Positions 9,381 through 27,818 of a stretch of DNA of 64,000 bases are shown here, piece after piece; positions within the stretch are counted from its first letter, which is position 1; every line of letters starts with the position of its first letter. A program made the position numbers and the translations under genes. Source of the stretch: Kaistia soli DSM 19436 (GTDB lineage Bacteria > Pseudomonadota > Alphaproteobacteria > Rhizobiales > Kaistiaceae); assembly GCF_900129325.1 (NCBI RefSeq), contig NZ_FQUP01000002.1:326668-390667 (forward strand). The letters run 5' to 3'. The notes under the pieces were generated by a model. The model worked only from the letters and a program-made list of their open reading frames with translations. It made no database searches and was not told the DNA's origin.

Positions 9381-10694
9381 TCAGGCGGCCGCCTGCAGCC
9401 GCTCGCCAACGGCCCGGTAGCTCAGGGCTTCTGCCAGATGCATGCGGCCGACGCGCGCGGCAGCGTCGAGGTCGGCGATGGTCCGCGCGACCTTGAGCAC
9501 CCGGTGATAGCCGCGTGCCGAAAGCTTGAGGGAATGCGCCGCCTCCGCGAGAAGCGCGCGGCCACTGGCGTCAGGTGCCGCAATCTCCTCCATGAGATTG
9601 GTCGGGCAGCGTGCATTGCTGCCGACATCCCTGAGCGAAAGGGCCTCATAGCGCTCGGCCTGCAAGGCACGCGCCGCAGCGACACGGGCGCCGACCACCG
9701 CACTCGTCTCGCCGCGGCCGGGCGCGATCAGATCGGCGGCCGTGACGGCAGGTACCTCGATGCGCAGGTCGATCCGGTCGAGGAACGGCCCCGACAGTCG
9801 CCCCTGATAGTCGGAAACGCAGCGAGCTCCGCGCGCGCAGACATGTCCGGGTTCGCCGGCCATGCCGCAGCGGCAGGGATTCATCGCCGCGATCATCTGG
9901 AAGCGGGCCGGATAGCTGACGCGATGATTAGCGCGCGCGATGACCGCCTCACCGGTCTCCAGCGGCTGGCGCAGCGAATCGAGCACCTGCGGCTGGAATT
10001 CCGGCAGTTCGTCCAGGAACAACACGCCATGATGGGCGAGCGAAACCTCGCCCGGCTTGACACGCAAGCCGCCGCCGACCAGCGCCGCCATCGAAGCCGA
10101 ATGATGCGGGGCGCGGAAGGGCCGACGGTCGGTGAGCTTTCCTCCGGAGAGTTCGCCGCCGATCGACGTCACCATCGAGACCTCGAGAAGCTCTCGCGGC
10201 GTCAGCGGCGGCAGGATCGAGGGCAGGCGGCTCGCCAGCATGGACTTGCCGGCGCCGGGCGGCCCGACCATCAGAAGGTTGTGCCCGCCGGCCGCGGCGA
10301 TCTCCAAGGCACGCTTGGCGACTTCCTGGCCACGGATGTCGGCGAGATCAGCGAGAAGCGGCGGCTCGCGCATCAGCGCCGGCTCCGGCCGCGTCAACAT
10401 CTGCGTGCCTTTGAAGTGATTGGCGATTGCGATCAGGCTGCGCGGGGCGAGGATATCGAGTTCGCGGCTCGCCCAGGCGGCCTCTGGGCCGGTGGCCGCC
10501 GGGCAGATCAGGCCGCGTCCCATGGCATTGGCACCGATCGCCGCCGGCAGCACGCCCGCGACGGCTGTGATCGTGCCATCGAGCGCCAGTTCCCCGAGAA
10601 CCAGATAGTCGGACAGCCGCTCGCCGGGAAGGGCGCCGATCGCGGCCATCAACGCCATGGCGATCGGCAGATCGTAATGGCTGCCTTCCTTCGG
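9381..10694 (-). pseudogene. comM: ComM/YifB C-terminal fragment (interrupted)
   Basis: This is the larger 3' part of comM, a hexameric Mg-chelatase-like AAA+ helicase that promotes branch migration in natural transformation. It begins within PKEGSHYDLPIA and contains the Walker A GPPGAGKSM, the VLFLDELPEF Walker B region, and the C-terminal SARGYHRVLKVARTIADL signature. It lacks the first 78 residues, which lie at 27583-27818 on the other side of the integrated element. The junction is the 17-bp repeat at 10678-10694. Element sequence upstream adds an in-frame GTG (10742) and ATG (10718), so a headless ATPase fragment could in principle be translated. Confidence 0.93.
10678..10694. repeat. 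Left attachment-site core (17 bp)
   Basis: TGGCTGCCTTCCTTCGG, identical to 27583-27599. On the minus strand it encodes P-K-E-G-S-H of comM. The sequences diverge immediately on both sides of the repeat, as expected for the strand-exchange core of site-specific integration. The integrase gene begins 173 bases to the right. Confidence 0.9.
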
Positions 10695-10867
10695 CCGTCC
10701 TGGACTATGCGCTCGCATAATCTCACGTTGCCGGAAGTGCACTCCTCTGCAGATTACCGCCGTTCTAGTCTTATCCGCCCATGCCGGCGATTGGCCGACG
10801 TCTCCTATTGTTTCCCCGCGCGAGGTGAGCCTATTGTGAGTGCAGTCTGCAAACTCACCCGGACGCG

Positions 10868-12121
10868 ATGTCGAAACTCACCAAAACGATTGTTGAAAGC
10901 GCTGAGCCCCGCGAAAAACAATATACGGTCTGGTGCTCCGACCTGAAGGGCTTCGGCGTCTATATCCAGCCCTCCGGCCGGCGGAGCTATTTCGTCGACT
11001 ATCGGACCGCGGACGGCGTGCGTAGGCGGATGACGATCGGAGCCCACGGCGTGCTCACGACGGAACAGGCCCGCAAGCTCGCCATCGAGACTATGGGCGG
11101 CATCGTTCTGCAGAAGGCTGATCCGCTCCTCGAGCGTCGCACGCGCCGGGCATCGCTTACGGTGGCCGAGCTTTGCGACCGATACATGCGCGCCGCCGAG
11201 AAAGGCCTCATACTCGGAAGGAGGAAGAGCCGACCGAAGAAGGCCTCGACAATTGAGATCGATCGCGGCCGGATCTCCCGACATATCAAGCCGCTGCTCG
11301 GCAACAAGCTCGTGATCGACCTTAGCCGGGCAGACATCACGAAATTCGTGCGGGACGTGTCGGCCGGGAAGACCGCGGTGAAGAATCGATCGGGCAAGAA
11401 CGGTGCCCGCGTCGAGGTTACTGGAGGCCTGGGCACCGCCGCAAGGACGGCTGGTTTTCTTGGCGGGATCCTCACCTATGCGGTCGAGGAGGGCATCATC
11501 CCGAGCAATCCGGCTCAGGGCGTCAAGCTGCCAGCGGACGGGGTCCGGACGCGGCGCGTTCTTCCCGCCGATTACAAGGCCATTGGGGCAGCCCTCACGG
11601 CGCCGGAGGCCGAGATAGACACGCCACAGGCGATCTTGGGCGCGTGGCTGCTCGCGCTCACTGGCTGCCGCCTGGGCGAGATCCAGTCGCTGCGCTGGTC
11701 AGAGGTGGACGTGGAGGGCCATTGTTTCCGCCTCGAGGACAGCAAGAGCGGTCCCTCGGTTCGCCCGATCGGCACGGCAGCATTTGACGCTCTCTCCCGC
11801 GCCAAGAAGGTGGCGGGCAATCCTTATGTCCTCCCGGCGCTACGCAAGAACGGCCACTACAATGGCCTCTCCGGGGCGTGGGGGCGTCTGATGCAGCGTG
11901 CGGGCTTGGAGGGCGTGACACCGCACACGATGCGCCATTCGTTCGCGTCGGTCGCGGGCGACCTGGGTCTCGCCGAAAGCACGATTGCTGCGCTCCTCGG
12001 CCATGCCGGCGGGACCGTCACCAGCCGGTATGTGCATCGGCTCGATTCGGTGATGGTGGCAGCCGCGGACAAAGTATGCGGTGAGGTGCTCCGGCAAATG
12101 ACCGCTGCCGATGACAGCTAG
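10868..12121 (+). CDS. int: Tyrosine site-specific integrase
   Basis: A 417-residue phage-type integrase that would catalyse insertion at, and excision from, the comM site. The N-terminal arm-binding region (residues 1-90) has the GFGVYIQPSGRRSYFVDYR pattern of P4-like integrases, followed by a SAM-like core-binding domain (about 95-215). The catalytic domain has a complete set of residues: Arg268 (TGCRLGE), Lys293, His353 and Arg356 (HTMRHSFAS), His379 (LLGHAG) and nucleophile Tyr388. Nothing suggests inactivation. It converges on and overlaps the repressor gene by 4 bases. Confidence 0.96.
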   Translation: MSKLTKTIVESAEPREKQYTVWCSDLKGFGVYIQPSGRRSYFVDYRTADGVRRRMTIGAHGVLTTEQARKLAIETMGGIVLQKADPLLERRTRRASLTVAELCDRYMRAAEKGLILGRRKSRPKKASTIEIDRGRISRHIKPLLGNKLVIDLSRADITKFVRDVSAGKTAVKNRSGKNGARVEVTGGLGTAARTAGFLGGILTYAVEEGIIPSNPAQGVKLPADGVRTRRVLPADYKAIGAALTAPEAEIDTPQAILGAWLLALTGCRLGEIQSLRWSEVDVEGHCFRLEDSKSGPSVRPIGTAAFDALSRAKKVAGNPYVLPALRKNGHYNGLSGAWGRLMQRAGLEGVTPHTMRHSFASVAGDLGLAESTIAALLGHAGGTVTSRYVHRLDSVMVAAADKVCGEVLRQMTAADDS

Positions 12122-12576
12122 AAGGGCTCTTCGGAGTCGTCTAGCGGGGGCATAGGCGACATAGGCAGCTCTGGCTCTTCGAACGGGTTGTAGGCGTCCT
12201 CTTGGGCAATCTCCATCCGCTCCTCCTGCCAGCGCTCCAACTGCTCACTGACGTTTGCGCGGAAGTCTGGCGGCGTCGCGATCTTCCCCTCGTAGATCTT
12301 GTCCACGACGCCGCTGATCTCGTCTATCAGGCGATCAACGCCGCGTGACGGCTCCCCTCCAGCCTTCAGCAGGGCAGCCATAGTCGCAAGTTCTTCTAGC
12401 TTCTCGTCCAGCGTCTTGGGCGCCGGGAAGAAATGCTCAAGGCACCAAACCACGGCCTCGTTCATCGACATTCCGGCGCGTTCCGCTTTCGCCTTGATGC
12501 GGTCCCGCATGCCCGGAGGGAGGCGCAATTGGAACTGCTCGTAGTCCTTCACCTTCGGCTTTTCGGGCAGCACCAT
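12118..12576 (-). CDS. Arc-like ribbon-helix-helix regulator
   Basis: A 152-residue protein. Residues about 14-50 (YEQFQLRLPPGMRDRIKAKA, then AGMSMNEAVVWCLEHFF) form an Arc-type ribbon-helix-helix DNA-binding domain. The rest is acidic and helical with a Pro/Glu-rich tail. It is transcribed away from the early operon, and two near-identical dyads lie in the shared upstream region. It is thus the best candidate for the element's repressor. No CI-type repressor was seen. Confidence 0.82.
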   Translation of the reverse strand: MVLPEKPKVKDYEQFQLRLPPGMRDRIKAKAERAGMSMNEAVVWCLEHFFPAPKTLDEKLEELATMAALLKAGGEPSRGVDRLIDEISGVVDKIYEGKIATPPDFRANVSEQLERWQEERMEIAQEDAYNPFEEPELPMSPMPPLDDSEEPF

Positions 12577-12594
12577 TCACAGACCTCTTTCGAC

Positions 12595-12610
12595 CTAGCA
12601 TGCATGCTAG
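12595..12610. promoter_or_regulatory. Operator-like dyad 1 (TAGCAT-N2-ATGCTA)
   Basis: CTAGCATGCATGCTAG is a perfect 16-bp palindrome, 18 bases upstream of the Arc-like gene start. It shares the TAGCAT-N2-ATGCTA core with a second dyad 58 bp away. Its position fits autoregulation by the RHH protein. Confidence 0.7.
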
Positions 12611-12650
12611 ATTTCGTTTGACTTAGCCACGGGCCTGCGGAATATTCCAG

Positions 12651-12670
12651 TCATAGCATCAATGCTATGA
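12651..12670. promoter_or_regulatory. Operator-like dyad 2 (TAGCAT-N2-ATGCTA)
   Basis: TCATAGCATCAATGCTATGA has 9-bp arms around a CA centre and the same TAGCAT-N2-ATGCTA core as dyad 1. It ends 12 bases before the first gene of the rightward early operon, where a bound repressor would block transcription. Binding by the adjacent RHH protein is inferred. Confidence 0.7.
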
Positions 12671-12682
12671 CAATCCGTAGGG

Positions 12683-12931
12683 ATGGTTAGTCAAATGTCA
12701 ACGCCTGCTCGCCCCCGCCTGCGCCGCTCTGAGGTGCCGAACTACTTGATGGAGAAGCACGGCATCCCGTGCGCATTGAAGACGCTCAACAAGCTTGCCT
12801 CGATCGGCGGCGGCCCTGCGATGCAGTATGCCGGCCGCATCCCGCTCTATCGCCCGGAAGACCTTGATGCCTGGGCTGCCGAGCGGCTCAGCAAGCCGGT
12901 CCGTTCGACCGCTGAGCGGAGCGCCGCATGA
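12683..12931 (+). CDS. Small winged-helix/excisionase-like protein
   Basis: An 82-residue basic protein, first gene of the rightward early operon. The pattern RRSEVPNYLMEKHGIPCALKTLNKLASIGGGP...GRIPLYRPEDLDAWAAER resembles MerR/AlpA-type helix-turn-helix proteins, including phage excisionases, with the closing DLDAW motif. It may serve as excisionase or early regulator. The start at 12683 directly follows TAGGG; an ATG at 12695 (MSTPARPR) is an alternative. Its stop overlaps the next ATG by 4 bases. Confidence 0.75.
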   Translation: MVSQMSTPARPRLRRSEVPNYLMEKHGIPCALKTLNKLASIGGGPAMQYAGRIPLYRPEDLDAWAAERLSKPVRSTAERSAA

Positions 12932-13732: not shown

Positions 13733-14299
13733 ATGAGCAGCAAGTGGAAGCGAAAGGGCGGTCAGAAGTTTCTCATGATCGACGGCGCGGTCTTCCGATC
13801 GGCCGCCTGGAAGGCGCTGCTGCCGGCCGAACGCGTCGCCTACGAAGAACTCAAGTGGCGATACGACGGCACCAACAATGGACGGATCGGGCTCGGCTGT
13901 AGGGAGCTGGCCGAATTGCTCCATGCAAAAAGCAAGGACACCGCCAGCCGAGCGCTCGCCGCGTTGCAGGAGAAAGGCTTCGTCGCGAAGGCGAAGCCAA
14001 GCGGGTTCACCCTGAAGCATCGCGTCGCAACCGAATGGCGTCTCACCGAGTACCGAGACGACGTCACCGGAGAGCTGCCGACAAGAGAATACGTCCGCTG
14101 GAAGCCGCCCCTCGAAAACAAAACACAGTCCGATGGATCGGACGCACGGTCCGATGGATCGGACAGAGGTCGGATTATACCCGGAGCAAATACGGTTCAC
14201 AGTCCGATGGATCGTACCGTCAGGCCCGTTTCGAGCAAATCACAGTCCGATGCATCGGCCACATATAGATATACCATAGGGGGTGAGACCAATGCGTAG
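13733..14299 (+). CDS. Winged-helix protein, candidate replication initiator
   Basis: A 188-residue protein. Residues about 13-110 look like a winged-helix domain (AVFRSAAWKALLPAERVAYEELK, then LGCRELAELLHAKSKDTASRALAALQEKGF) of the type found in phage replication proteins. The C-terminal 60 residues are Ser/Asp-rich and probably disordered. The DNA coding for this tail contains four 18-bp dyad repeats and is followed by an AT-rich patch. That mirrors phage lambda O, which binds iterons inside its own gene. The initiator role is inferred from this arrangement; a transcriptional regulator is the alternative. Confidence 0.75.
   Translation: MSSKWKRKGGQKFLMIDGAVFRSAAWKALLPAERVAYEELKWRYDGTNNGRIGLGCRELAELLHAKSKDTASRALAALQEKGFVAKAKPSGFTLKHRVATEWRLTEYRDDVTGELPTREYVRWKPPLENKTQSDGSDARSDGSDRGRIIPGANTVHSPMDRTVRPVSSKSQSDASATYRYTIGGETNA
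14125..14259. repeat. Four dyad iterons, candidate replication origin
   Basis: Copies at 14125-14142, 14146-14163, 14199-14216 and 14242-14259 match ACAGTCCGATGGATCGGA with at most two or three changes each. Each is a dyad TCCGAT-N2-ATCGGA (imperfect in copies 3 and 4). Start-to-start distances of 21, 53 and 43 bp are close to whole helical turns. Copy 3 is in a different reading frame of the host gene from the others, so conservation is for DNA, not protein. An AT-rich stretch (14260-14280) follows. Confidence 0.75.
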
Positions 14300-14624
14300 C
14301 TCTGACCTTCCGCTCTTTGCCTGGCAGCCGCCTCGCCAGACGATCCCATTTCCGGCCCGATCTCGCATCGGCCACGCCCGGAAGGTCGCTCTGCAGATGG
14401 CCAAGGCCCGGACGCAGAATGAAGCGACATGGGCCTATACCCGGGCATGCGACTCGTTCGTTGCCCAAATGCGGAAGGCTGGCATCGCCGAGCATGAGAT
14501 TGAGCGGCAACTCGCCGACTTCTCCCGAGCCATCTACGGGCAGTGCCTCAGCGAGCACGCGGCCTGGGTGCCCACGCTGCCTGAGCACGCCTCCTACCAT
14601 CGCAGCCCCGACGGTGCAGCATGA
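14292..14624 (+). CDS. DUF6074-like phage protein
   Basis: A 110-residue protein with the opening SDLPLFAWQPPRQTIPFPARSRIG, followed by a helical body and AGIAEHEIERQLADF, typical of the DUF6074 family found in rhizobial prophages. I chose the ATG at 14292 because AGGGGGTG sits 7 bases upstream; a GTG at 14283 is in frame. It overlaps the initiator-like gene by 8 bases and the next gene by 4. Function is unknown. Confidence 0.72.
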   Translation: MRSSDLPLFAWQPPRQTIPFPARSRIGHARKVALQMAKARTQNEATWAYTRACDSFVAQMRKAGIAEHEIERQLADFSRAIYGQCLSEHAAWVPTLPEHASYHRSPDGAA

Positions 14625-15263: not shown

Positions 15264-15322
15264 AATGTTGCCGTGAGAACCCATTGATATTGTTATATTT
15301 TCTCCTCCATCGACCATTGACA

Positions 15323-15351: not shown

Positions 15352-15381
15352 GGTTGGCAATAACGTTACGGGCTGAGGGCC

Positions 15382-16068
15382 ATGGCAGACGGCAAGTTCA
15401 TCAGCTACCTCCGCGTCTCGACGGAGCGCCAAGGGCGTTCTGGCCTTGGCCTTGAGGCTCAGCGGCAGGCGGTCGCCGAGTATCTCAACGGCGGCAAGTG
15501 GACGGTCCTGCAAGAGGTCGTAGAGATCGAGAGCGGCAGCAAGGATGATCGGCCGAAGCTTCTCGAGGCCATGGCTCTGTGCCGGCTCCACGGCGCCACG
15601 CTGGTCATCGCGAAGCTCGATCGCCTGTCGCGTGATGCCGCGTTCCTGCTGAGCCTGCAAAAGGCTGGCGTGCGCTTCGTCGCGGCCGATATGCCGGAGG
15701 CCAATGAGATGGTGGTCGGCATCATGGCCGTGGTTGCCCAGGCCGAGCGCAAGATGATCAGCCAGAGGACCAAGGCGGCCCTGCAAGCGGCGAAGGCGCG
15801 TGGCCAGAAGCTTGGCGGCTTCCGCGGCGCGATGATCACTGACGAGGCGCGCAAGGCCGGCCGAGAGGCTGCTTCAGCGAAGGCACGGGCTCGCGCGGCC
15901 GACCTGATGCCGGTGATCGAGGAGATCAGGGCCTGCGGCGTAACCAGCCTCGGCGGGATCGCCGCAGCGCTGAGCAGCAAGGGCATCCCGACGGCCCGCG
16001 GCATGAGTGACTGGACAGCCGTCCAGGTATCCCGCGTGCTCGCATCTGCTACGCCATCGAACGCTTAG
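15382..16068 (+). CDS. Serine recombinase (resolvase/invertase family)
   Basis: A 228-residue protein with an N-terminal resolvase catalytic domain: the nucleophile Ser lies in ISYLRVSTERQGRSGLGLEAQR, and KLDRLSRDAAFLLSLQKAGV and the E-helix RKMISQRTKAALQAAKARGQKLG are present. The C-terminal part (about 175-228) has an HTH-like IAAALSSKGIPTARGMSDWTAVQVSRVL. This is the short resolvase/invertase form, not a large serine integrase. It may resolve multimers or invert DNA, but no paired inverted target was found. Confidence 0.9.
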   Translation: MADGKFISYLRVSTERQGRSGLGLEAQRQAVAEYLNGGKWTVLQEVVEIESGSKDDRPKLLEAMALCRLHGATLVIAKLDRLSRDAAFLLSLQKAGVRFVAADMPEANEMVVGIMAVVAQAERKMISQRTKAALQAAKARGQKLGGFRGAMITDEARKAGREAASAKARARAADLMPVIEEIRACGVTSLGGIAAALSSKGIPTARGMSDWTAVQVSRVLASATPSNA

Positions 16069-16136: not shown

Positions 16137-16535
16137 ATGACGCAAACAAGCCCCTCGATCGCTCAGCCTTTGCCGACCGGCCGCGCCGCTGTGTCGAACG
16201 GTTCGCGCCTGCTTCCGGGCGTGGATGGCCGGAGCGCATCGGCACGCCGCTATCGGGACCTGATGAAGGAGTTCACCGGCGAGCTCGGCGGCGAGGGCAT
16301 CATGACGGAGCCGATGCGTGCCCTCGTGCGCCAGGCTGCAGCCGTGACGGTGGAAGCCGAGAAGATGCAGGCGGCGATCGTCCGCGGCGACCCGGTGGAC
16401 ACCGAGCAGCTGGTGCGGGTGACGAATACCCTCGCCCGCCTCATGAATCTTCTGAAGACGAAAGCCAAGGCGGCTAAGGCCGGCCAGCGAACGGAGCTGT
16501 CCGAATACCTCCGCAACAGGGCGGCCATCGCATGA
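16137..16535 (+). CDS. Putative terminase small subunit
   Basis: A 132-residue helical protein (MTQTSPSIAQPLPTG start) with NGSRLLPGVDGRSASARRYRD followed by helices and a region rich in Arg/Lys. It overlaps the large terminase gene by 4 bases, the usual place for the small subunit that recognises packaging DNA. Sequence similarity alone is weak, so the call is mainly positional. A TTG at 16101 would extend it by 12 residues. Confidence 0.6.
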   Translation: MTQTSPSIAQPLPTGRAAVSNGSRLLPGVDGRSASARRYRDLMKEFTGELGGEGIMTEPMRALVRQAAAVTVEAEKMQAAIVRGDPVDTEQLVRVTNTLARLMNLLKTKAKAAKAGQRTELSEYLRNRAAIA

Positions 16536-17926
16536 GGCCGCTGGTTAGCCTCCGAGAGGCCATGGCCGACCCGGCATTGCTCGGCGGCGCCATTCCCGGT
16601 GAGTCTTGGTTGCCCTGGCGCACGCTCCTCATCGCCGCGATGGGAGAGCCGCTCACGGATGACGAGCGGACGATCTTCACCGCGTTGACGGGCCGCGATA
16701 TCGAGCCTCTGGAGCAGGTTGAGGAGCTCTGGTGCATCGTCGGCCGGCGCGGTGGCAAGACGCGGGCCGCGGGCACGCTGGCTGCCTATGTCGCCGGCCT
16801 CTGCGACCACAGCGACGCACTGGCGCCCGGTGAGCGTGGCGTGCTTCCGATCATGGCGGCGTCGACCGATCAGGCCACACGGGCATTCCACCATGTCGTC
16901 GGCATCCTGAACCATTCCCCGGTGCTGCGGTCGGAGGTGCAGGATCAGCTCTCCGATGTCATCCGCCTCGGAACAGCGATCGATGTGCAGATCCGGCCGG
17001 CGAACTTCCGGACCCTGCGCGGCATCACGGCCGTCGGCGCGATCGGTGACGAGGTGGCGTTCTGGTCCATCGAGGGCTCGGTCAATCCCGACAGCGAGAT
17101 CCTCGACGCCCTTCGCCCCGCGCTGGCGACCACCGGCGGGCCTTTGGTGGTGATCAGCTCTCCCTATGCGAGACGCGGCGAGCTCTGGGCAGCATACAAA
17201 CGGCACTACGGCCCGAAAGGCGATCCCCGCGTTCTGGTGGCCAAGGGACCGTCGCGAACGTTCAACCCGACGCTGAAGCAATCGGTGGTCGACCGGGCCT
17301 ATGAGCGCGATGCGGCTGTGGCTTCGGCCGAATATGGCGGCGAGTTCCGCACCGATGTTGAGGCGCTGCTGACCCGCGAGGCGGTCGAGGCCTGCGTTAG
17401 CCCGGGCGTCCGGGAGCGGGGGGCTGTGGCGTCGACCAGCTACTTCGCCTTCGTCGACCCTTCGGGCGGCAGCGCTGACAGCTTCACGATGTGCATCGGC
17501 CACCGAGATGATCGGGTTGTCGTCATTGACGCCATCCGGGAGCGGAAACCACCGTTCTCACCTGAAGGTGTTGTCGAGGAGTATTGCACGCTCCTCAAGA
17601 GCTATCGGGTCAATCGTGTCAGCGGTGATCGTTACGCTGGCGAATGGCCACGCGAGCAATTCCGTAAGCACGACATCCAATACGAGGTCGCGGTCAAGGC
17701 AAAGAGCGACCTTTATCGGGATCTGTTGCCCGTCCTGAACTCGCGCAACATCGACCTGCTCGATCATGACCGGCTCGTCACCCAGTTGATCGGTTTGGAG
17801 CGGCGCACGGCGCGCGGTGGCCGCGACAGCATCGACCATGCGCCAGGCGCCCATGACGACATCGCGAACGCGGTCGCCGGCTGCATCCAAGCCAAGCGCT
17901 CATTCAATTACGACTGGGTCGCATAA
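16532..17926 (+). CDS. terL: Phage terminase large subunit
   Basis: The 464-residue DNA packaging motor. The ATPase domain has Walker A GRRGGKT (residues 71-77), and a Walker B-like region in VGAIGDEVAFWS with the following SSPYARRG coupling motif. The nuclease domain has acidic metal-binding residues in FVDPSGG, SGDRYAGEWP and APGAHDDIANAVAG. All expected catalytic motifs are present. In a complete phage the portal gene would follow; here it does not. Confidence 0.93.
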   Translation: MRPLVSLREAMADPALLGGAIPGESWLPWRTLLIAAMGEPLTDDERTIFTALTGRDIEPLEQVEELWCIVGRRGGKTRAAGTLAAYVAGLCDHSDALAPGERGVLPIMAASTDQATRAFHHVVGILNHSPVLRSEVQDQLSDVIRLGTAIDVQIRPANFRTLRGITAVGAIGDEVAFWSIEGSVNPDSEILDALRPALATTGGPLVVISSPYARRGELWAAYKRHYGPKGDPRVLVAKGPSRTFNPTLKQSVVDRAYERDAAVASAEYGGEFRTDVEALLTREAVEACVSPGVRERGAVASTSYFAFVDPSGGSADSFTMCIGHRDDRVVVIDAIRERKPPFSPEGVVEEYCTLLKSYRVNRVSGDRYAGEWPREQFRKHDIQYEVAVKAKSDLYRDLLPVLNSRNIDLLDHDRLVTQLIGLERRTARGGRDSIDHAPGAHDDIANAVAGCIQAKRSFNYDWVA

Positions 17927-17936
17927 AGGAGCCCCC

Positions 17937-19103: not shown

Positions 19104-19541
19104 ATGGCTGAGAAGAAAATCAACGGGCGGACCTTCAAGGTGACGCCGATGCTGGCCTCCGAAGCGCTGGCGATGCAGGCGCGGCTGTTCAAGGCGATCG
19201 GACCGGCCATGCCGCGGCTGCCCGCCATTCTCGCTGGGCTCAAAGAAGATAGGCCGGCGGAGGCCCGTACCGCGGCCGAGGTCAGTTCCATCTCTGCCCT
19301 GGTCGAGATCCTCGGCGGCGCTCAGCCGGGCGAGACAACGGCGCTGGTCAAGGACATCTGCGAGAAGGCGATGATCCAGAGGCAGGGCGGCAACTTCGAA
19401 GATGTCGACCTCGATCATGACTTCACCGGCCACCTTGCCGATATCCCGGCCGTCGTGCTGTTCGTGCTCAAGGAGAACTTCTCCGATTTTTTCGGCGACG
19501 TGCTCAAGAGCGTTGGCAACCGGGCGCGGGCGGCGAGCTGA
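19104..19541 (+). CDS. Phage tail assembly chaperone (upstream frame)
   Basis: A 145-residue protein (MAEKKINGRTFKVTPMLASEAL start) with the composition and position of lambda G-type tail assembly chaperones: it lies just before the tape measure gene and would bind it during tail assembly. A T_TTT_TTC slippery heptamer near its 3' end (19487-19493) leads into an open -1 frame that ends exactly at the tape measure start. A minority of ribosomes would therefore make a longer G-T-like fusion. Confidence 0.82.
   Translation: MAEKKINGRTFKVTPMLASEALAMQARLFKAIGPAMPRLPAILAGLKEDRPAEARTAAEVSSISALVEILGGAQPGETTALVKDICEKAMIQRQGGNFEDVDLDHDFTGHLADIPAVVLFVLKENFSDFFGDVLKSVGNRARAAS
19487..19493 (+). promoter_or_regulatory. 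Programmed -1 frameshift slippery site T_TTT_TTC
   Basis: The heptamer TTTTTTC is in the correct phase (zero-frame codons TTT TTC) for tandem -1 slippage. The -1 frame then has no stop for 82 codons, up to the TGA at 19739-19741. This is the classical organisation of phage tail chaperone genes. No downstream stem-loop or pseudoknot was worked out. Confidence 0.75.
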
Positions 19542-19741
19542 GCGAGGCTGAGCTGCGCCGGGCCGCGCCGACGCTCGATCTCTTCCTGTGGCGGCCGGTG
19601 ATGGCCGACCCGCCGCTGTGCAGCCCGAGCGACTTGCGGACCTGGGTGACGCTCGGCGACCTGCTCGACATGCACGAGGCCCTCGATCTGAAGGCGTTCG
19701 CTGCCGAGAAGGCGGAGCGGGAAAGGGAACAGCGGCGATGA
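19493..19741 (+). CDS. Tail chaperone C-terminal extension (-1 frame)
   Basis: This is the part made only by -1 frameshifting. It reads RRRAQERWQPGAGGELSEAE, then RRAAPTLDLFLWRPVMADPP and a charged helical tail ending REREQRR. The predicted fusion is about 212 residues (130 zero-frame plus 82). The TGA stop overlaps the tape measure ATG as ATGA, which supports the frame being translated. In lambda the equivalent T domain recruits the tail tube protein. This region is not preceded by a good independent start. Confidence 0.72.
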   Translation, partial: RRRAQERWQPGAGGELSEAELRRAAPTLDLFLWRPVMADPPLCSPSDLRTWVTLGDLLDMHEALDLKAFAAEKAEREREQRR

Positions 19742-21678
19742 CCGTCATCGACGAACTCATTGCGATCCTCGGCTACAAGTTCGAGGGCGAGAAGGACGTC
19801 GCCCGCTTCAAGCAGGGCATCGACGGTGCCGAGAAGCGGCTGCGCAGCTTCGCCTCAGCCGTCACTGTCATCGGTGCCGCGATCACCACCGGCGTTGGGG
19901 CGATGTTCGCCCGATCGGTCATTCAGGTCGGCTCGCAGTTCGAGAACCTGCAGGTTCGGCTCGAATCTCTGGAAGGATCATCGGACAAGGCCAAGAAGGC
20001 GATGGATTGGGTGACGATCTTCGCGCAGAAGACGCCACTCTCACTCAAGGAGACCGCCGACGCCTATGCGATGCTGAAGACCTTCGGCATCGACCCGATG
20101 AACGGCTCGCTGCAGGCGGCCGTCGACACAATGGCGAAGAATGGCGGTTCAGCCGATTATCTCCAAGGCGTCATTCTCGGCCTCGGGCAGGCATGGACCA
20201 AGGAAAAGCTGCAGGGTGAGGAAGCGCTGCAGCTGATCGAGCGCGGCATTCCCGTCTGGGAACTGCTCTCGGAGGCGACGGGCAAATCCGCTGCCGAGCT
20301 GCAGAACCTGTCGCAGAAGGGCAGGCTCGGCCGGAAAGAGATCGCGCTCCTCATCGAGATGATGGAGAAGAAGTCTTTCGGCGCGTCGGAGAAGATGGCG
20401 AAGACCTGGTCCGGCGTCACCGGCCGGCTCGGCGACACCTGGACGATGTTCCTGAAGCGGATCGCCGATGCCGGCTTCTTCGACACGGCGAAGCGCCAGG
20501 TCGATCGGTTCTCCGACTTTCTCACGGAGCTCGCTGCCGACGGGCGGCTCGAACGCTGGGCGAGGACGCTGTCCGACGCGCTGTCGGCGGCTGCGGACGC
20601 TATCAGTCCCATTGCAAAGGGCATTGTGAAGGACGTCGGCACAATCGTCGATGCCTTCAAGAAGATGCCGGAGCTCAAATGGGCAATGTTGGCGCTCGGC
20701 GTCTTCATGTTCCCGACTGTTGCGGCCTTCGGGCTTCTCGCGCTGCTCGCCGATGATGTGCTGACCATGATGCGGGGCGGCAAGTCGATCATCGGCGACT
20801 TCTCCAGATGGCTGCAGGATCTCACCGGCATCGCCAAGAGCACCGCCGACGCGATCTCGCTGATCGGAGCCGCGATCCTCGCCGCCTTCATCTTCAAGCC
20901 GGCGCTGGCGAGGGCAGGGTTGGCTGCAGTCGGCGGCCTTGTCGGACTGGCAAGAGGCATCCTCGGCAGTGCGGCGCCGGCGGCCGCTCCCGCAGCTGCT
21001 CCGGCAGTCGCCCCTGCCGCTGCGGAGGCCGGCTTCCTGGCATGGGCCGGACGGGGGCTCGCGCGCTTCCTGGCGCCGATTGGTGTCGCCCTCGGCGTCG
21101 CGGAGCTGCTGAAGACCTTCGATCCCAAGGGAAACCTTTGGGGCCTGACGTCGGGCATCGACAAATGGATGAAGAAGAACACAGGCTTTGATCCGTCCAA
21201 CGTGACCCCGGACGGTTCGCAGCGCGGCACCTTCGGTCAGCGACTCGACGGCGGGCCGAACAAGGTCGATCTCTTCCGCGTCCCGGCCGCTGTCCCTGAT
21301 GGCGGACGAGACTACACGCTCGGGGCCTTCGGCGGCTTCCGGCAGCCAGGACAGGCACCTGTAGCGGGCGGGTTCAAGGGCGGCGATGTCTGGGTCGACA
21401 GGATGAACGCGGCGCTCGCCAAGCTCCCTGCCGTGTTCGAGATGGTGGACAAGATGTCGGGCGCGATGCCCGGATCGACGGCGCCGCAGGTGATGAATGA
21501 CAATCGCCAGGACAATCGCTCCACGACGGTCAACATCACGCAGAACATCGCGCAGGCCAGCGATGCGCCGCGCGCCGCGGCCGAGGCGACCGGACGCGCT
21601 GTTTCCGGGAGAGCCTCTTCGTTGTCGCAGCCGGCCAGAAAGGTCGATCCCGCCACAAATTGGGGAGGACCGCGCTGA
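19738..21678 (+). CDS. Phage tail tape measure protein
   Basis: A 646-residue protein that sets tail length and occupies the tail lumen. The N-terminal part has the tape measure signature (DVARFKQGIDGAEKRLRSFA...AITTGVGAMFARSVIQVGSQFENLQVRLESLEGSSDKAKKAMDW), with hydrophobic segments at about 320-345, 375-400 and 440-480 and an Ala/Pro-rich linker near 420. The ATG at 19738 overlaps the stop of the frameshifted chaperone; an apparent extension to 19588 is that gene read in another frame. The protein is short for this family, implying a short tail or internal loss. Confidence 0.88.
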   Translation: MTVIDELIAILGYKFEGEKDVARFKQGIDGAEKRLRSFASAVTVIGAAITTGVGAMFARSVIQVGSQFENLQVRLESLEGSSDKAKKAMDWVTIFAQKTPLSLKETADAYAMLKTFGIDPMNGSLQAAVDTMAKNGGSADYLQGVILGLGQAWTKEKLQGEEALQLIERGIPVWELLSEATGKSAAELQNLSQKGRLGRKEIALLIEMMEKKSFGASEKMAKTWSGVTGRLGDTWTMFLKRIADAGFFDTAKRQVDRFSDFLTELAADGRLERWARTLSDALSAAADAISPIAKGIVKDVGTIVDAFKKMPELKWAMLALGVFMFPTVAAFGLLALLADDVLTMMRGGKSIIGDFSRWLQDLTGIAKSTADAISLIGAAILAAFIFKPALARAGLAAVGGLVGLARGILGSAAPAAAPAAAPAVAPAAAEAGFLAWAGRGLARFLAPIGVALGVAELLKTFDPKGNLWGLTSGIDKWMKKNTGFDPSNVTPDGSQRGTFGQRLDGGPNKVDLFRVPAAVPDGGRDYTLGAFGGFRQPGQAPVAGGFKGGDVWVDRMNAALAKLPAVFEMVDKMSGAMPGSTAPQVMNDNRQDNRSTTVNITQNIAQASDAPRAAAEATGRAVSGRASSLSQPARKVDPATNWGGPR

Positions 21679-22169
21679 TGGGCTTCTATGCCAAGGTGAT
21701 CCGTCGGAGCGGCGGCGGATTGAAGAAGCTCTTCGTGCCGAAGCGGCGGCGGTCCATCGTCAAGGTCGGCTTCCCCGCCGGAGAGGTCAAATCATCGGTC
21801 ATCATGCGGGCGATCTACAACGAGTTCGGCACGCGCGGATCCGGCAAAGGATTCAAGACGGAGCGAGGCGGCGGGTTCGGCGGACCTATTCCTGAGCGGC
21901 CGTTCCTCCGCAACGCCATGCGCGAGAACCGCGATGCCTACCGCGCGGCGATGAGGGCCGCAGCGCGCAGGATCTTCGCCAAGAAGCTGCCCGTAGGCGA
22001 GGAACTGCGCCGGCTCGGCGTCAAGGCGCAGGGCGACGTGCAAAAGTCTATCCAGACACTGACTTCGCCCCCGAATAGTCCGCTCACAATCGCATTGAAG
22101 GGCTCTGACAAGCCGTTGATCGACACGGGTGAGATGGGGCAGGCAGTCACCTTCAAGGTCGAGGAGTAA
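21678..22169 (+). CDS. HK97 gp10-like/virion morphogenesis protein
   Basis: A 163-residue basic protein starting at an ATG that overlaps the tape measure stop by one base. The pattern AIYNEFGTRGSGKG...PERPFLRNAMREN...ELRRLGVKAQGDVQKSIQTL...PLIDTGEMGQAVTFKV is the shape seen in HK97-gp10/gpG-like tail completion proteins: NEFGT, PERPFLR and a closing DTG segment. The position after the tape measure is unusual for HK97-type phages but occurs in other tailed phages. Confidence 0.7.
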   Translation: MGFYAKVIRRSGGGLKKLFVPKRRRSIVKVGFPAGEVKSSVIMRAIYNEFGTRGSGKGFKTERGGGFGGPIPERPFLRNAMRENRDAYRAAMRAAARRIFAKKLPVGEELRRLGVKAQGDVQKSIQTLTSPPNSPLTIALKGSDKPLIDTGEMGQAVTFKVEE

Positions 22170-22175
22170 CCCGCC

Positions 22176-22781
22176 ATGCCCGCCATCATCTTCTCGCGCG
22201 CAATCGGCCCCGTTGCCGTTGATGTCGTGCTCTCCGAAGCCCATGAGAGCCGTCTGTCGATCACGAAAAACCCGATCGAGGCAGGCGCCGATGTCGCGGA
22301 CCACGCCTATGTCGAGCCAAAGCGACTGACGCTCGATTTCGCGGCAGCCGGCGCGGCTCTGACCTATGCAGCGCTGGTCCGCTTCCAGGAGAGCCGCCAG
22401 CCCTTCACGGTGGTCTCCGGTCTGTTCATCTACGACAATATGCTGATCGAGGTCCTGACAGCCGACCGCGACCCCGACACCGCATTTATCTTAAAAGGTC
22501 GCGCCGTTCTCAGCGAGGCGATCATCGTCGAAACTGCCTATGCGCAGTCCGAAGACACGGGTTCGCAGAAGTCTGGGCAGGCGGGCGGCAAGAAGTCGAC
22601 CAATGCCGCAAAGCCTTCCTCCGGTCGTTCTGGTGATGCTGTGACTGCTGATCGTGCTTCCGGCACGGTGGCGCGAGGCGACGCGACCTCATCGGCTTCC
22701 TCGACTGCGGAAGATCAGTCGGCGCTCTATCGCCTGAAGTACGGATCTTCGGCAGCGAGAGTGGGCAGAGGGGATCTCTGA
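22176..22781 (+). CDS. Dit-like tail/baseplate protein
   Basis: A 201-residue protein. The first 130 residues resemble the N-terminal domain of Dit-like tail proteins: VVLSEAHESRLSITKNPIEAGADVADHAYVEPKRLTLDF, then an all-beta pattern through AILKGRAVLSEA. The rest is a Ser/Lys/Gln-rich low-complexity linker ending in SALYRLKYGSSAARVG. Dit proteins form the hub at the tail tip. It starts 6 bases after the previous gene. Confidence 0.72.
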   Translation: MPAIIFSRAIGPVAVDVVLSEAHESRLSITKNPIEAGADVADHAYVEPKRLTLDFAAAGAALTYAALVRFQESRQPFTVVSGLFIYDNMLIEVLTADRDPDTAFILKGRAVLSEAIIVETAYAQSEDTGSQKSGQAGGKKSTNAAKPSSGRSGDAVTADRASGTVARGDATSSASSTAEDQSALYRLKYGSSAARVGRGDL

Positions 22782-22782
22782 C

Positions 22783-23112
22783 ATGCTGCAAGCCGCTCGT
22801 GCCATCGATCGCTTCGCCGTTCCGCTGACGCTCTACCAGACGCAGCCGACGACCTATGTCAACCACAAGCCGGTGACGCATGACCCGATCGAGATTGCGA
22901 TCCGTGGCGTCATCCAGCCCGCCAAGGGCAACCAGATGCAGGACATGCCGGAAGGCGTCAGGATCGACGCCGGATGGCTGCTGTGGACCCGGGCCGAGGT
23001 CGGCGAGGGCGACATCGTCGCTGACGCCGCGGGTCTCCGCTACCGCGCCATGTGGCTTTGTCCGCGCGCGGAAGGCGGGTTCGTGCGGGCGGTGCTGGAG
23101 AGGTTTCGATAG
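22783..23112 (+). CDS. Hypothetical phage structural protein
   Basis: A 109-residue protein following the Dit-like gene by one base. It has a beta-rich pattern (PLTLYQTQPTTYVNHKPVTHDPIEIAIRGVIQPA...EGDIVADAAGLRYRAMWLCPRAEGGFVRAVLERF) like small phage neck or tail-completion proteins, but no exact family was recognised. It is the last recognisable morphogenesis gene; baseplate, fibre and lysis genes that should follow are missing. Confidence 0.65.
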   Translation: MLQAARAIDRFAVPLTLYQTQPTTYVNHKPVTHDPIEIAIRGVIQPAKGNQMQDMPEGVRIDAGWLLWTRAEVGEGDIVADAAGLRYRAMWLCPRAEGGFVRAVLERFR

Positions 23113-23161
23113 GGATCCGGAATGCGGGCCCCATCGCGGACTAGAAAGACCCGCGGGCAGG

Positions 23162-24376: not shown

Positions 24377-24405
24377 AAAACAGCGCCTCCTCCGGGCGCT
24401 GTTTT
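24377..24405. terminator. Bidirectional intrinsic terminator
   Basis: AAAACAGCGCC (24377-24387), a 7-base loop, and GGCGCTGTTTT (24395-24405) form a perfect 11-bp stem with A and T tracts at its base, so it can work in either direction. It ends two bases from the stop of the minus-strand gene at 24407-24844, for which it is the natural terminator. Confidence 0.8.
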
Positions 24406-24406
24406 G

Positions 24407-24844
24407 CTATCCGCGATGGTTCTGAAGGACCGCGCCTCGAACTAGATGGGATCTTGTCTGCCGCTTTCGGCATCGGTGAAACGTCTGGACCCACACCTCG
24501 CAGTTGTTCACGATCTTCAATGAAACCGAATATCGATGCGCAAGAGCCGGGCTGAGGTAGTTCACAATCACGAACCTAGGTTTATCTCGCTCCTGGACGA
24601 TCAGCCCGTTTCTGATGGCGAACGGCATAACCAGCATCTCCAAGCGGGATATCTGAGGGTGATCCCGCTCGATGTGATCTAGCGCGGAAAGCGCCATATA
24701 GACGTTGGGTGTGGCGAGGCGCAGCGCATTGCTGACAGCGGGGCGGAATTCCCCGACATGGATAGGGTCACGCAAGCCGCGAGAAAGGGCGTTTATGTCT
24801 TCAAGCGTTAGCGACACCAATAACGCACTCAGCCAGGCCGACAA
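24407..24844 (-). CDS. Hypothetical protein, possible PBECR-type nuclease
   Basis: A 145-residue protein if started at TTG 24844; a GTG at 24817 (VSLTLEDINALSRGL) gives 136 residues. The C-terminal half (NGLIVQERDKPRFVIVNYLS, then RYSVSLKIVNNCEVWVQTFH, then RCRKRQ) resembles the small barnase/EndoU/colicin/RelE-like (PBECR) nucleases carried by prophages: a helix, two beta strands, and a basic end. The resemblance is by eye only. A strong terminator follows directly, supporting expression. Its 5' end overlaps the divergent gene at 24795. Confidence 0.5.
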   Translation of the reverse strand: MSAWLSALLVSLTLEDINALSRGLRDPIHVGEFRPAVSNALRLATPNVYMALSALDHIERDHPQISRLEMLVMPFAIRNGLIVQERDKPRFVIVNYLSPALAHRYSVSLKIVNNCEVWVQTFHRCRKRQTRSHLVRGAVLQNHRG

Positions 24845-24998
24845 GTTTCAGAAAGCGGCGAGAGAGGCCGAAACAGACGACAGCGCAGAGGCCTTTGACG
24901 CTGTTCTGAAGCGGGTAGCAAATGGCAAAGCCGAGAAAAAACGGCCGCCCCTAAGGGCGACCGCCATGACGATTAGGCAGCGCGTTAACGCCGCTTGA
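24795..24998 (+). CDS. Small hypothetical protein
   Basis: A 67-residue protein (MSSSVSDTNNALSQADKFQK start) with AREAETDDSAEAFDAVLKRVA and a basic C-terminus. AAAGGG lies 5 bases upstream of the ATG. Short proteins with this layout are common in rhizobial mobile elements. It overlaps the minus-strand genes on both sides: 50 bases at its 5' end and 14 bases at its 3' end. Function is unknown. Confidence 0.5.
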   Translation: MSSSVSDTNNALSQADKFQKAAREAETDDSAEAFDAVLKRVANGKAEKKRPPLRATAMTIRQRVNAA

Positions 24999-25191
24999 CC
25001 GCCTCGGCACGGCTGCCAGAGTGCTTGTCGCCGCTTTTGATCTCAGAGACGCGGGCGCTGTTCACGTCGAACTGCGCCGCGATCCGGTTCTGTGTCCATC
25101 CATCTAGCAGCATGGATTGGATTTTGACTGCGTCATCATATGTGAGCCGCCGAGAAGGGCGCCTCGGGTCTTCGCCGAATAGGTCGCGCAT
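24985..25191 (-). CDS. Small helix-turn-helix protein
   Basis: A 68-residue protein (MRDLFGEDPRRPSRRLTYDD start). The segment DAVKIQSMLLDGWTQNRIAAQFDVNSARVSEIKSG is a homeodomain-like/Hin-type helix-turn-helix, followed by a basic tail. It may regulate cargo genes of the element. It is convergent with the gene at 24795. Confidence 0.68.
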   Translation of the reverse strand: MRDLFGEDPRRPSRRLTYDDAVKIQSMLLDGWTQNRIAAQFDVNSARVSEIKSGDKHSGSRAEAVKRR

Positions 25192-25777
25192 GGACCTGCC
25201 TTTCGCTTTGAGAGCAAAAGCCGGGCTTGACCAAAGGGCGGAAAAGACTCACTACTAACTTGCACTACCGCCCTACGTCCCGTCGCCCGACCATCAATCG
25301 TGACGGGGCCTGAACTTCAGAAGCCGTCCCGGTTGGCCCCGTGGCGGCTTCGTTCATTTAGGCTCACACCACATGTAGTTCGAGTCCGCATCCCAGGGCA
25401 AGACATAGTAATACGACCGCTGCACACTTTTCGTGGGCGGTTACAATATTCCAGCGATTTCAGTCTTTTAGGGTAGTCCTCCCGTGTGAACGGTGGTCCT
25501 CCCTCCACACATCACACGCCACCAGTTAGCGCTGATTCGAGTAGAAGCGCAAATTGCTGCAGCGCGGCTGAGTCGCTGCGTGGCGAAAGACATCAGCGTT
25601 ACTTACCTATTAGGTAAAAGCATATGCAGATTTCTTTATATCAAACGGGGAGTGGCACGGATTTGCAAGAGATAGGCTAGCCTGCCTCGCGGCCGCTAGC
25701 GAGGTGGCCGGTGGCACGCGCGACCCGCCGCATCTCCAGCGGGTCGCGGAGGCTTATAGGGTTTGGCCAAGTCATGC
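25192..25777. other. Noncoding stretch with palindrome and hairpins
   Basis: About 585 bases with no convincing gene. It holds an isolated 15-bp dyad TTACCTATTAGGTAA (25603-25617) followed by an AT-rich promoter-like patch (25618-25650), then two GC hairpins: CCTCGC/GCGAGG (25685-25704) and a 9-bp stem GCGACCCGC/GCGGGTCGC (25720-25747). The second hairpin lies 30 bases downstream of the minus-strand TIR-like gene and may act as its transcript end, although it has no T tract. Confidence 0.45.
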
Positions 25778-26629
25778 TTACAGAGCGATGTTCATATCTA
25801 TCTGATAACCAGCTGCTTTGAGCTCCTTCGCGAGAGCAAACTTCCACATGCCGGCACCATCAACTGGTGTATAGAGTACCCCATCGAAATCGTTGGGGGT
25901 TTCCACATCGCCGCGGACCAGCGAGGCCACCCGGTTCGGCCCAAGGGCTCCGAGAAAGAAACCCAGCTCCAAAATGACATTCTGCCTCGCCCTCTTCTTG
26001 CCATTTGGCAATTCATCGTCGGGCGTCAGTAGGACGATAGCGAACCCAACATCAGCGGCCTCATCTCGGAACTTCTGAATGATCGTTCTACCTACATTCG
26101 CCTGCTCATGAAGAATGATGGGCTCGTATCCAAGTTTGGCGATCCAACGCGCGACGCTCTCTTTCAGCTCGCTGTCGTGGCCGTGAACAACGAAGATGCG
26201 ATTGGACTGTACGTCAGCCGTCTTTGCCGTTCTGCGAACCGCAACCTCTTCGTCAGCTCCGAGACGTTCCTGTAGGAGGGAAATTGCGTCGCCCAGCAAT
26301 TGGATAGAGCGAACTCTGTCTGCCGAAACGCTCCTCACTTTGTCATGGTGAGGAAGTTCATCCCCAAAAGATATAGGCCAGTCAAACTGCGAGGCCGCCC
26401 AATATCTATTATACTCGATTGTATTGCTGCCGAATGTCTCAACGAGTGCGGTCTCGATTGAAGTTGAGAGCGGACGTACGGTCTCGTGCGGATCTTCACG
26501 ACTGAGACTATTCGGATCGAATGCTTTGACATCGTCGAGCCGCTTGGTCAAACGCACGATGCCGCGCCGCATGTCTTCGGCCGACATTGATGCCTGCTTA
26601 GGTTCTTGTGGTGTAGGCCGTCGAGCCAT
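25778..26629 (-). CDS. TIR-like (CAP12/Pycsar-type) effector protein
   Basis: A 283-residue protein. Residues about 143-283 are a TIR-like nucleotide-binding domain (Pfam CAP12/PCTIR type): NRIFVVHGHDSELKESVARW, then EPIILHEQANVGRTIIQKF, AIVLLTPDDE, RARQNVILELGFFLGALG with the probable catalytic Glu221, and VLYTPVD. Proteins with this domain degrade NAD+ in CBASS and Pycsar antiphage systems. The N-terminal 140 residues are an unrecognised helical region, which may be the sensor. I chose the ATG at 26629 because GGGGAG precedes it by 7 bases. GC is lower than in neighbouring genes. No cyclase gene was found nearby. Confidence 0.85.
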   Translation of the reverse strand: MARRPTPQEPKQASMSAEDMRRGIVRLTKRLDDVKAFDPNSLSREDPHETVRPLSTSIETALVETFGSNTIEYNRYWAASQFDWPISFGDELPHHDKVRSVSADRVRSIQLLGDAISLLQERLGADEEVAVRRTAKTADVQSNRIFVVHGHDSELKESVARWIAKLGYEPIILHEQANVGRTIIQKFRDEAADVGFAIVLLTPDDELPNGKKRARQNVILELGFFLGALGPNRVASLVRGDVETPNDFDGVLYTPVDGAGMWKFALAKELKAAGYQIDMNIAL

Positions 26630-26768
26630 ATTGCAACTCCCCCGCGAATCAATCGTCAGTCGAATTAGATGCAGGAGTTGTCGTGCAGGCAAGGACCGGC
26701 AGGCGATCGTGTGTGAAGCGAGATACCTGTAGAAATCGAGAGATCGCACAGAAAAGACAACGCGAGCC

Positions 26769-27437
26769 CTATCGCGCCACCTTTTTCAGTGCTTTGAGGC
26801 GCTCAACCAGCGACGCATATTGGTAAGTGGCCTTTAGTATTTCCTTGGCCATATCAATCGCTAGACCAGATTCGTCGATGCCAATGTCGTCGTAGGCCTG
26901 AGCCTCAACGTGAGCTGCATCGTTGCCTAGAATTCGGAGCTCATCTGCGGCGGCCAGTAGCTCAGAGGGTATGATGATCGATGTGCTCAGCTTTGATAGA
27001 CGATCCTTCAGATTGCCACCGGTCGCGCCCTTGTCCTTGCAAACCTCCTCGAGAACTCGTCGAATCATGAGTGCGGATGCCTTATACGCTCCTGCGGCGT
27101 GGCACTTTAGGGCCTCTTCAATCGAACTGAGGATAGCTTGTGGGAGCGCCGTGGCGTCAAAGTCGATGAGTTCTGACGGCAGAGAACTGACAAGCTTGCC
27201 GCCCTCAACGTGAACGAGAATTATTCCTCGGCAGTCCGGGTTGGGGCAGATTCGGATTCCCGCGCCACACTGGATATTTTCAACGATGCCATCTGTGCGT
27301 CTTCGTTGCTCCAACCAACCCGCGTCGAGGCTCTGCTCTGATGGGTGAAAGACGCCAGCGTGCCGACAATAGGGGCAGCGAAGCTTTACATCCTTCGGCG
27401 GCAACGGCCCTGGACCCAGAAGCCCACGAAACGGCAT
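26769..27437 (-). CDS. DUF4145 domain protein with zinc-ribbon N-terminus
   Basis: A 222-residue protein. The N-terminus has paired cysteines typical of a zinc ribbon (Cys21-x2-Cys24 in CPYCRHAG; Cys64-x4-Cys69 in CPNPDC). The C-terminal half (about 100-215) is a DUF4145 helical domain: AAGAYKASALMIRRVLEEVC and LRILGNDAAHVEA with Arg168 and His176. DUF4145 has been linked to the HEPN group and is frequent near defence loci. Its ATG directly follows the stop of the comM N-terminal fragment, so translational coupling is likely. It is 139 bases upstream of the TIR-like gene on the same strand. Confidence 0.78.
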   Translation of the reverse strand: MPFRGLLGPGPLPPKDVKLRCPYCRHAGVFHPSEQSLDAGWLEQRRRTDGIVENIQCGAGIRICPNPDCRGIILVHVEGGKLVSSLPSELIDFDATALPQAILSSIEEALKCHAAGAYKASALMIRRVLEEVCKDKGATGGNLKDRLSKLSTSIIIPSELLAAADELRILGNDAAHVEAQAYDDIGIDESGLAIDMAKEILKATYQYASLVERLKALKKVAR

Positions 27438-27818
27438 TTAGGCACCAACCGTGATTGAGGGTTCGTCACCGAGCGCGGGCGCGCACAAATGATCCTGCGG
27501 CGACGTTGCCGGTGAGTGATGCGTGAGTGATGCGCAGGGCCCTCTGGAATTGACAAAAAACTCAACGCGTTGCAGCTCCTGCTGGCTGCCTTCCTTCGGA
27601 AGATCGGCCGGCGCGAGATTGACGATGACCCGCTTTGGCGGCAGGGCGAGCCCGGAGGCATGCAGCGCCGAGCGCACCCGTTCACGGCTTTCGGCAACGG
27701 TCTTGTCGGGCAGGCCGACGATGATGAAACTCGACAGGCCAGGGACGATCTGCACCTGCACATCCACGGGAACTGCCTCGATCCCCTGGAAGGACACTGT
27801 CGTTACATGCGCGACCAT
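27438..27818 (-). pseudogene. comM: ComM/YifB N-terminal fragment fused to element sequence
   Basis: The 5' part of comM: MVAHVTTVSFQGIEAVPVDV, through the Lon-like domain signature IIVGLPDKTVAESRERVRSA to NLAPADLPKEGS, about 78 residues. After the 17-bp repeat the frame runs 48 further element-derived codons (QQELQRVEFFVNS...) to a stop at 27438. The product, about 126 residues, lacks the ATPase domain and should be nonfunctional as a helicase. It retains the native start and upstream region after gshB, so its transcript may continue into the DUF4145 and TIR-like genes. Confidence 0.92.
27583..27599. repeat. Right attachment-site core (17 bp)
   Basis: TGGCTGCCTTCCTTCGG, identical to 10678-10694. 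On the minus strand it encodes P-K-E-G-S of comM; downstream codons belong to the element. The element therefore carries about 145 bases of its own DNA in frame before the fused comM stop at 27438. Confidence 0.9.

Follow-up and report, generated by a model that had tools for sequence, protein, structure and literature searches.

The comM gene is an established target of mobile elements. Elements with a CF65_00446-like integrase are described in comM of Aggregatibacter, Acinetobacter, Mannheimia, Francisella and P. syringae by Croucher 2016 (PMC4774983), and Tn6022-like elements (TnsF) and Tsy elements, the latter with tyrosine recombinases, by Faure 2023 (PMC10293859). Large serine integrases at a Mg chelatase/protease gene account for 12.4% of the predicted site-specific integrases in Durrant 2022 (PMC10083194). 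In Acinetobacter, comM inactivation goes together with lower transformation, and the same paper poses the question why so many mobile elements target comM (PMC11472951). Here we describe an integrative element, which we read as phage-derived, in a 64,000-nucleotide stretch of the Kaistia soli DSM 19436 genome (hereafter the window). The only comM gene of this genome is interrupted after about codon 78 by an element of 16,905 bp, measured from repeat to repeat, and probably an integrase lineage that targets tRNAs adopted, in this competence gene, a site resembling its usual one. The broken gene and its borders are as follows.

27583-27818, minus strand: 5' part of comM, codons 1 to about 78; the reading continues to a stop at 27438 within the element
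9381-10694, minus strand: 3' part of comM, starting near codon 73 and including the stop; retains the AAA+ and C-terminal domains
10678-10694, plus strand: 17-bp attachment (att) core at the integrase-side edge
27583-27599, plus strand: 17-bp att core at the distal edge

The 17-mer TGGCTGCCTTCCTTCGG is present in exactly these two copies, inside the comM codons for PKEGS, and no other position of the window came within two mismatches of it (0.02 expected). Five same-strand repeated 17-mers of any kind, two of them overlapping, were counted in the window, so the repeat by itself is not extraordinary; it is taken as the att site because it marks the two comM breakpoints and recurs in relatives. 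Joining 27583-27818 with 9381-10677 on the minus strand gave 1533 nt without internal stops. An earlier sequence-only reading had proposed this split by a 16.9-kb element with a 17-bp repeat, and the exact repeat pair, the uninterrupted rejoined frame and the complete set of domains bear it out; its length of 1533 bases was also correct, while its 511 codons include the stop and the protein has 510 residues. The rejoined ComM carries the ChlI, Mg_chelatase and Mg_chelatase_C domains in the correct order, and the element breaks it inside ChlI (residues 20-139). The C-terminal part scored above the cut-off of NCBIfam TIGR00368 (YifB family). The neighbouring open reading frame (ORF) at 27937-28878 passed the glutathione synthase family cut-off, in agreement with the proposal that gshB adjoins comM. 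A second copy of comM was considered and rejected, as the whole genome gave a single Mg_chelatase_C match. The insertion is real and site-specific.

To see how comM looks in other genomes, 397 genomes of the host's order were surveyed, and 51 of them, picked by visual inspection because they gave two matches or scored weakly, were examined further together with three additional same-genus genomes. A second draw comprised 398 genomes, of which 43, all outside the order and chosen in the same way, were examined further. Among 14 same-genus genomes, comM was intact in 10 (G015-G021 and G024-G026, where G026 is Kaistia terrae). It was split at codon 73 in three, namely the window's own genome (G000), Kaistia adipata DSM 17808 (G014, locus L104) and G022, and near residue 210-223 in G023. 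The idea that comM is naturally split without an element was rejected on the basis of the 10 intact genes.

Two integrases lie directly against comM at the window's codon, those of K. adipata (75% identical to that of the window) and of G022 (79% over 130 residues); in G022 only the C-terminal part of comM is visible and the integrase runs off the contig. An integrase beside comM starting from about residue 74 was found in Nitratireductor indicus, two Mesorhizobium, K. adipata and the viral contig L181. Altogether, the same integrase clade occupies the window's comM codon in six other places (G014, G022, L101, L102, L103 and L181), which is the recurrence that the sequence-only reading had suggested looking for, along with an intact comM in related genomes. 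Locus L102 (G404, the same genome as G348) has a comM alignment that starts earlier owing to read-through, and its att core was seen directly. The edges of this element and of the G405 element (L103) share the core CCCAAGGAAGGCAGCCA, and those of the K. adipata element have 21 bp in common. The comM-site elements measure about 16.3, 16.9, 23 and 33 kb and their cargo is mostly unrelated. A comM fragment starting at residue 78-82 with a stop was seen in G199, where no integrase was found, and it was left out of the counts. Separately, in G754, which belongs to another class of the phylum, an insertion of roughly 49 kb cuts comM near codon 74-80 (C6:2400-9000 and 47500-53500; L224, L225). Judged by eye, the genes at its edges seem Tn7-like, and a relative of the window integrase was not seen in the two stretches fetched.

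The targets of the integrase family were counted in a set of 88 loci, consisting of the best 80 of 296 relatives on genome contigs and 8 relatives on viral contigs. Here 76 integrases adjoined tRNA-Arg(CCG), 71 of them recognized by the arm pattern and 5 by the loop sequence alone; 4 adjoined other tRNAs (by eye) and 5 adjoined comM. One locus was unreadable (L122) and two were without upstream DNA (L182 and L183). With these three excluded, 80 of the 85 readable relatives were located at tRNAs, and the site in tRNA-Arg(CCG) is the anticodon arm. The 397-genome draw, which overlaps this set in several genomes, contained 20 integrases above the cut-off in 19 genomes. Three were at comM (G000, G014 and G348), and the remaining 17 were assigned by eye to tRNA 3' halves, 12 of which have the tRNA-Arg loop. 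Of 14 loci submitted to ARAGORN, L105 yielded tRNA-Arg(CCG) and L123 a distant tRNA-Tyr; another 11 loci yielded no tRNA. Since the program detects whole tRNAs only, the tRNA-half assignments rest on reading the T-arm and loop sequences.

A tree of 23 rows (the window, 21 loci from the set of 88, and G036) placed six comM rows in one clade (support 100/96) among tRNA users. By homology and common descent the window integrase is a member of the tRNA-Arg(CCG) integrase family, while its element sits in comM and not at a tRNA. Full-length comM was present in the genomes of four tRNA-type relatives (G406, G407, G408 and G410). No tRNA was found in the window. The description of the att site as protein-coding rather than tRNA holds literally, but it misses that the relatives are mostly tRNA-Arg(CCG) users and that the comM site resembles that anticodon arm. 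The tRNA-Arg(CCG) gene of K. soli is itself taken: between two complete copies of it, spaced by about 17.8 kb, lies another element (G000:C5:652845-670683, L221), which has a distant tyrosine integrase and genes that resemble type I restriction-modification by eye.

The resemblance lies in the (L)PKEGS codons, which form CTGCC and GGCAG separated by seven bases, the arms and spacing of the tRNA-Arg(CCG) anticodon arm. On the integrase-proximal strand the tRNA arm of L108 has the spacer TTCGGAG between CTGCC and GGCAG, with GGCAA at the end in L105 and L107. The comM core of K. adipata has the spacer TTCCTTC between the same arms, and on the N-terminal side of the G404 element the last spacer base is G. 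These comM cores are therefore identical to the tRNA-Arg arm at 13 and 14 of 17 positions, with equal arms and 7-bp spacing. For comparison with chance, both strands of 31 intact comM genes were scanned; the set consists of genes with the highest similarity to the window's ComM and of G021 and G026, the split L024 having been dropped from 32 loci. In 27 of the 31, the att site matched the tRNA arm better than, or as well as, any other position. Shuffles of the arm and spacer letters that kept the inverted repeat reached this result in 1 of 1000 trials and plain shuffles in 0 of 1000.

Several observations weigh against descent from a tRNA site. Three of them, on the spacer, the window's empty site and the random-spacer trials, also favour an alternative, namely that the likeness to the tRNA-Arg anticodon arm is coincidental and that comM specificity was gained independently. 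The spacer agrees at just 3 and 4 of 7 bases, and the window's empty site at 12 of 17 positions, although this is still the top score in its own comM. In 4 of the 31 genes another position matches the tRNA arm better, and the 31 are mutually related rather than independent. Unchanged arms with random spacers did as well as the real arm in 26 of 300 trials, which indicates that the arms carry the resemblance. The arm pattern also occurs at 26 places in the K. soli genome, two of them being tRNA-Arg(CCG), against 17 for a reversed control, so the arms are not sufficient for targeting. Finally, the sister of the comM clade (99/98) is L182, one of the two loci without upstream DNA. Coincidence nevertheless seems unlikely to us in view of the shuffles that preserve the inverted repeat, the predominance of tRNA users among the readable relatives and a tRNA-Arg-like half that lies at the comM site of G036.

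In this last genome comM is cut at the window's codon, with CTGCCCAAAGAGGGCAG at both edges. Its integrase is 42% identical to that of the window and lies beside the N-terminal part of comM, which is the side opposite to that in the window, and the tRNA-Arg-like 3' half adjoins the C-terminal part. ARAGORN reads this half together with the comM codons as a tRNA-Lys across the junction (L083:508-586). One other similar tRNA half, with 3 mismatches and not called as a tRNA, is present in the genome. The case is suggestive only, since the comM halves are on two contigs of a genome that is 84% complete; the integrase row also falls outside the comM clade on a very long branch. It seems that a more distant integrase entered comM at the same codon in G036 too.

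The content of the element and its probable recombination sites are listed below.

10824-10841, plus strand: GGTGAG followed by GTGAGT, 12 bp apart; probably arm-type sites of the integrase
10868-12121, plus strand: tyrosine integrase of 417 aa with Arm-DNA-bind_3 and Phage_integrase domains
12118-12576, minus strand: Arc-like DNA-binding protein, phage-type repressor candidate
12683-12931, plus strand: 82-aa protein, excisionase candidate, with no family match
13733-14299, plus strand: weak match to a transcription regulator; relatives in L181 and, distantly, in the G404 element
14283-14624, plus strand: DUF6074 protein, with relatives in L181 and in the G404 element
15382-16068, plus strand: serine resolvase/invertase
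16532-17926, plus strand: phage terminase large subunit (PHROG match)
19104-19541, plus strand: tail assembly chaperone (Phage_TAC_15)
19588-21678, plus strand: tape measure protein, start codon uncertain
21660-22169, plus strand: tail completion or Neck1-type protein
22176-22781, plus strand: Dit-like tail protein
22783-23112, plus strand: match to PHROG 939 (head protein)
25778-26749, minus strand: TIR-domain protein (CAP12/PCTIR; PADLOC candidate PDC-S35), probable defence cargo
26769-27437, minus strand: DUF4145 protein with a weak PD-T7-4 match
27512-27528, plus strand: GTGAGT twice, 11 bp apart; probably arm-type sites of the distal side

The integrase, with arm-binding and catalytic domains, adjoins one att site, and a direct repeat at both edges is matched by an intact empty site in relatives, as in tyrosine-integrase elements. 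Its residues R268, H353, R356, H379 and Y388 were invariant in a four-row alignment, and we take them to be the catalytic residues. In all four comM elements compared, the core has CTCAC-type repeats at distances of 54-56 and 65-66 bp on its distal side and, on its integrase side, a CTCACC 134-135 bp further in (comM orientation). Each element contains 24-28 motifs of the CTCAC type, and we infer that those at near-constant positions are integrase arm sites. Relatives of the 82-aa protein occur near the integrase in the elements of G014, G404 (L102) and G405 (L103), in L101 and L181, and also at the tRNA-site loci L108 and L185.

Family scans covered 20 ORFs of the element, some small ORFs being outside them. 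Among these 20, neither a portal nor a major capsid protein was matched, as a complete temperate phage would require, and endolysin families gave solely weaker matches, to the tape measure and Dit-like proteins. When the integrase was compared with phage records, 104 matched and none reached at least 60% identity. From its gene content we read the element as phage-derived, either a defective prophage or satellite-like. The TIR and DUF4145 genes (25778-27437) adjoin each other in its lower-GC distal end. A further 17-bp direct repeat, CACAGTCCGATGGATCG, has copies 74 bp apart at 14124-14214, within the gene at 13733-14299.

This content also bears on another explanation, that of an ordinary comM element of a known kind (Tn6022/Tn7-like with TnsF, Tsy, or a large serine integrase), unconnected with tRNA sites. 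Besides the reports that such elements use comM (PMC10293859 and PMC10083194), many comM genes of the host's order are cut elsewhere. By eye, the N-terminal comM match ended at residue 203-239 and the C-terminal match started at 197-214 in 20 genomes of the draw. Where the cut was at about residue 210-217, the Walker A codons, a homologous recombinase ORF was found in all nine of the elements fetched, which are the following.

Walker A elements (loci L081-L100): G023, G061, G148, G236, G254, G326, G336, G346 and G355

The recombinase of G148, the sole one scanned, is a large serine recombinase, and these Walker A insertions fit the large serine integrase kind described in PMC10083194. Other comM genes of the order are cut near residue 280. 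For most insertions at other codons, a longest-common-substring search of the edges returned meaningless cores. One insertion of 4.5 kb near comM residue 303 (L091, G009:C43:40000-47500) has inverted terminal repeats and an 11-bp target repeat.

The window element is built differently. Its break at codon 73-78 is away from the Walker motifs, and its features are a single tyrosine integrase bearing an arm domain, a 17-bp repeat, and phage genes. Of the 20 scanned proteins, none matched a Tn7 transposition protein, and a Tn7-type insertion was rejected for this reason and because of the codon. The Walker B-guided insertion and TnsF of Tn6022/Tsy elements likewise have no counterpart here, as the scans detected one tyrosine recombinase. 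An ordinary comM element of these kinds is thus highly improbable.

The effect of the insertion on ComM was assessed against G025 (L150), recorded as Mesorhizobium sp. BR1-1-16, the nearest genome by ComM, whose gene is intact. The dN/dS ratios were 0.012 for the N-terminal part and 0.054 for the C-terminal part, which is the range of intact pairs. Loss of ComM function is thus not visible in these values, a point against inactivation; they imply either a recent insertion or continuing selection on the gene. Prophages in other competence genes are known as cases of regulated gene integrity. By analogy, comM could be functional in two pieces or through frequent excision, with the insertion being neutral. 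Both halves are open, their dN/dS is low and the empty site restores the gene exactly, but a recent insertion would give equally low ratios and the ChlI domain is cut, so that we regard this as possible and rather doubtful. Because the ORF is cut inside ChlI and the empty site is exactly restorable, it may fairly be inferred, as in the sequence-only reading, that integration would abolish and excision restore ComM-dependent recombination. The host encodes ComEC and a GTA_TIM protein. ComM is listed among the proteins that help gene transfer agent (GTA) DNA of Rhodobacter to enter cells in PMC10883770, and a split comM would on this ground be expected to reduce the integration of incoming homologous DNA.

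We propose that a phage-derived integrative element used its own tyrosine integrase to insert into comM by site-specific recombination, and that the lineage of this integrase would have descended from integrases using the tRNA-Arg(CCG) anticodon arm. The comM gene may have been adoptable by such an integrase since its conserved (L)PKEGS codons form the same inverted CTGCC and GGCAG arms around a 7-bp spacer. In the integrated state, ComM would be cut in its ChlI domain and probably inactive, which would lower the recombination of DNA arriving by transformation or from gene transfer agents. Such homologous DNA could otherwise replace the element by an empty site, and exact excision would restore comM. 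We put the probability of this explanation as a whole, comprising integrase-driven entry, capture from tRNA-Arg(CCG) to comM and probable ComM inactivation, at roughly 0.8. A broader version, for which we see the chances as evenly balanced, makes anticodon-arm mimicry a route from tRNA-targeting phage integrase to competence-gene breaker. In it, (L)PKEGS would act as a decoy tRNA-Arg arm, captured once by the window clade and again, in the opposite orientation, by the more distant tRNA-Arg-type element of G036. Occupation of the tRNA by rivals, as seen in the K. soli genome, may favour the switch, and the split would protect the element from removal by transformation or GTA DNA.

A mobile element in comM is already known as such; this codon, this integrase clade and the route from tRNA to comM appear new in the literature searched. 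Among open-licence papers, searched by title and the start of the abstract, none dealt with an att site in comM that resembles a tRNA, no paper combined comM with Kaistia, and PMC12884075 makes no mention of comM, yifB, chelatase or competence. For one lineage, the look-alike of a common tRNA integration site within the gene would give a concrete and testable answer to why comM is targeted. The capture would also supply a direction (tRNA to comM), a defined attB and a case in a host that encodes a gene-transfer-agent protein.

The hosts named for CF65_00446-type elements are not alphaproteobacteria. Like the window element, these elements are integrase-bearing and lie inside comM, at a location described as orthologous, and they are proposed to inhibit transformation; the excerpted text of PMC4774983 draws no link to tRNA. 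The target region of Tn6022 and Tsy elements overlaps the Walker B motif according to PMC10293859, whereas the window element enters near codon 73 and carries a single integrase of conventional phage type. Large serine integrases (PMC10083194) share the kind of target gene and differ in their serine chemistry and in the codon used. The integrases of the 76 tRNA-Arg(CCG) loci, mostly alphaproteobacterial, share with the window element the integrase family, the integrase-proximal layout and the same or a similar host-side core arm, and differ from it in that their target is a tRNA gene.

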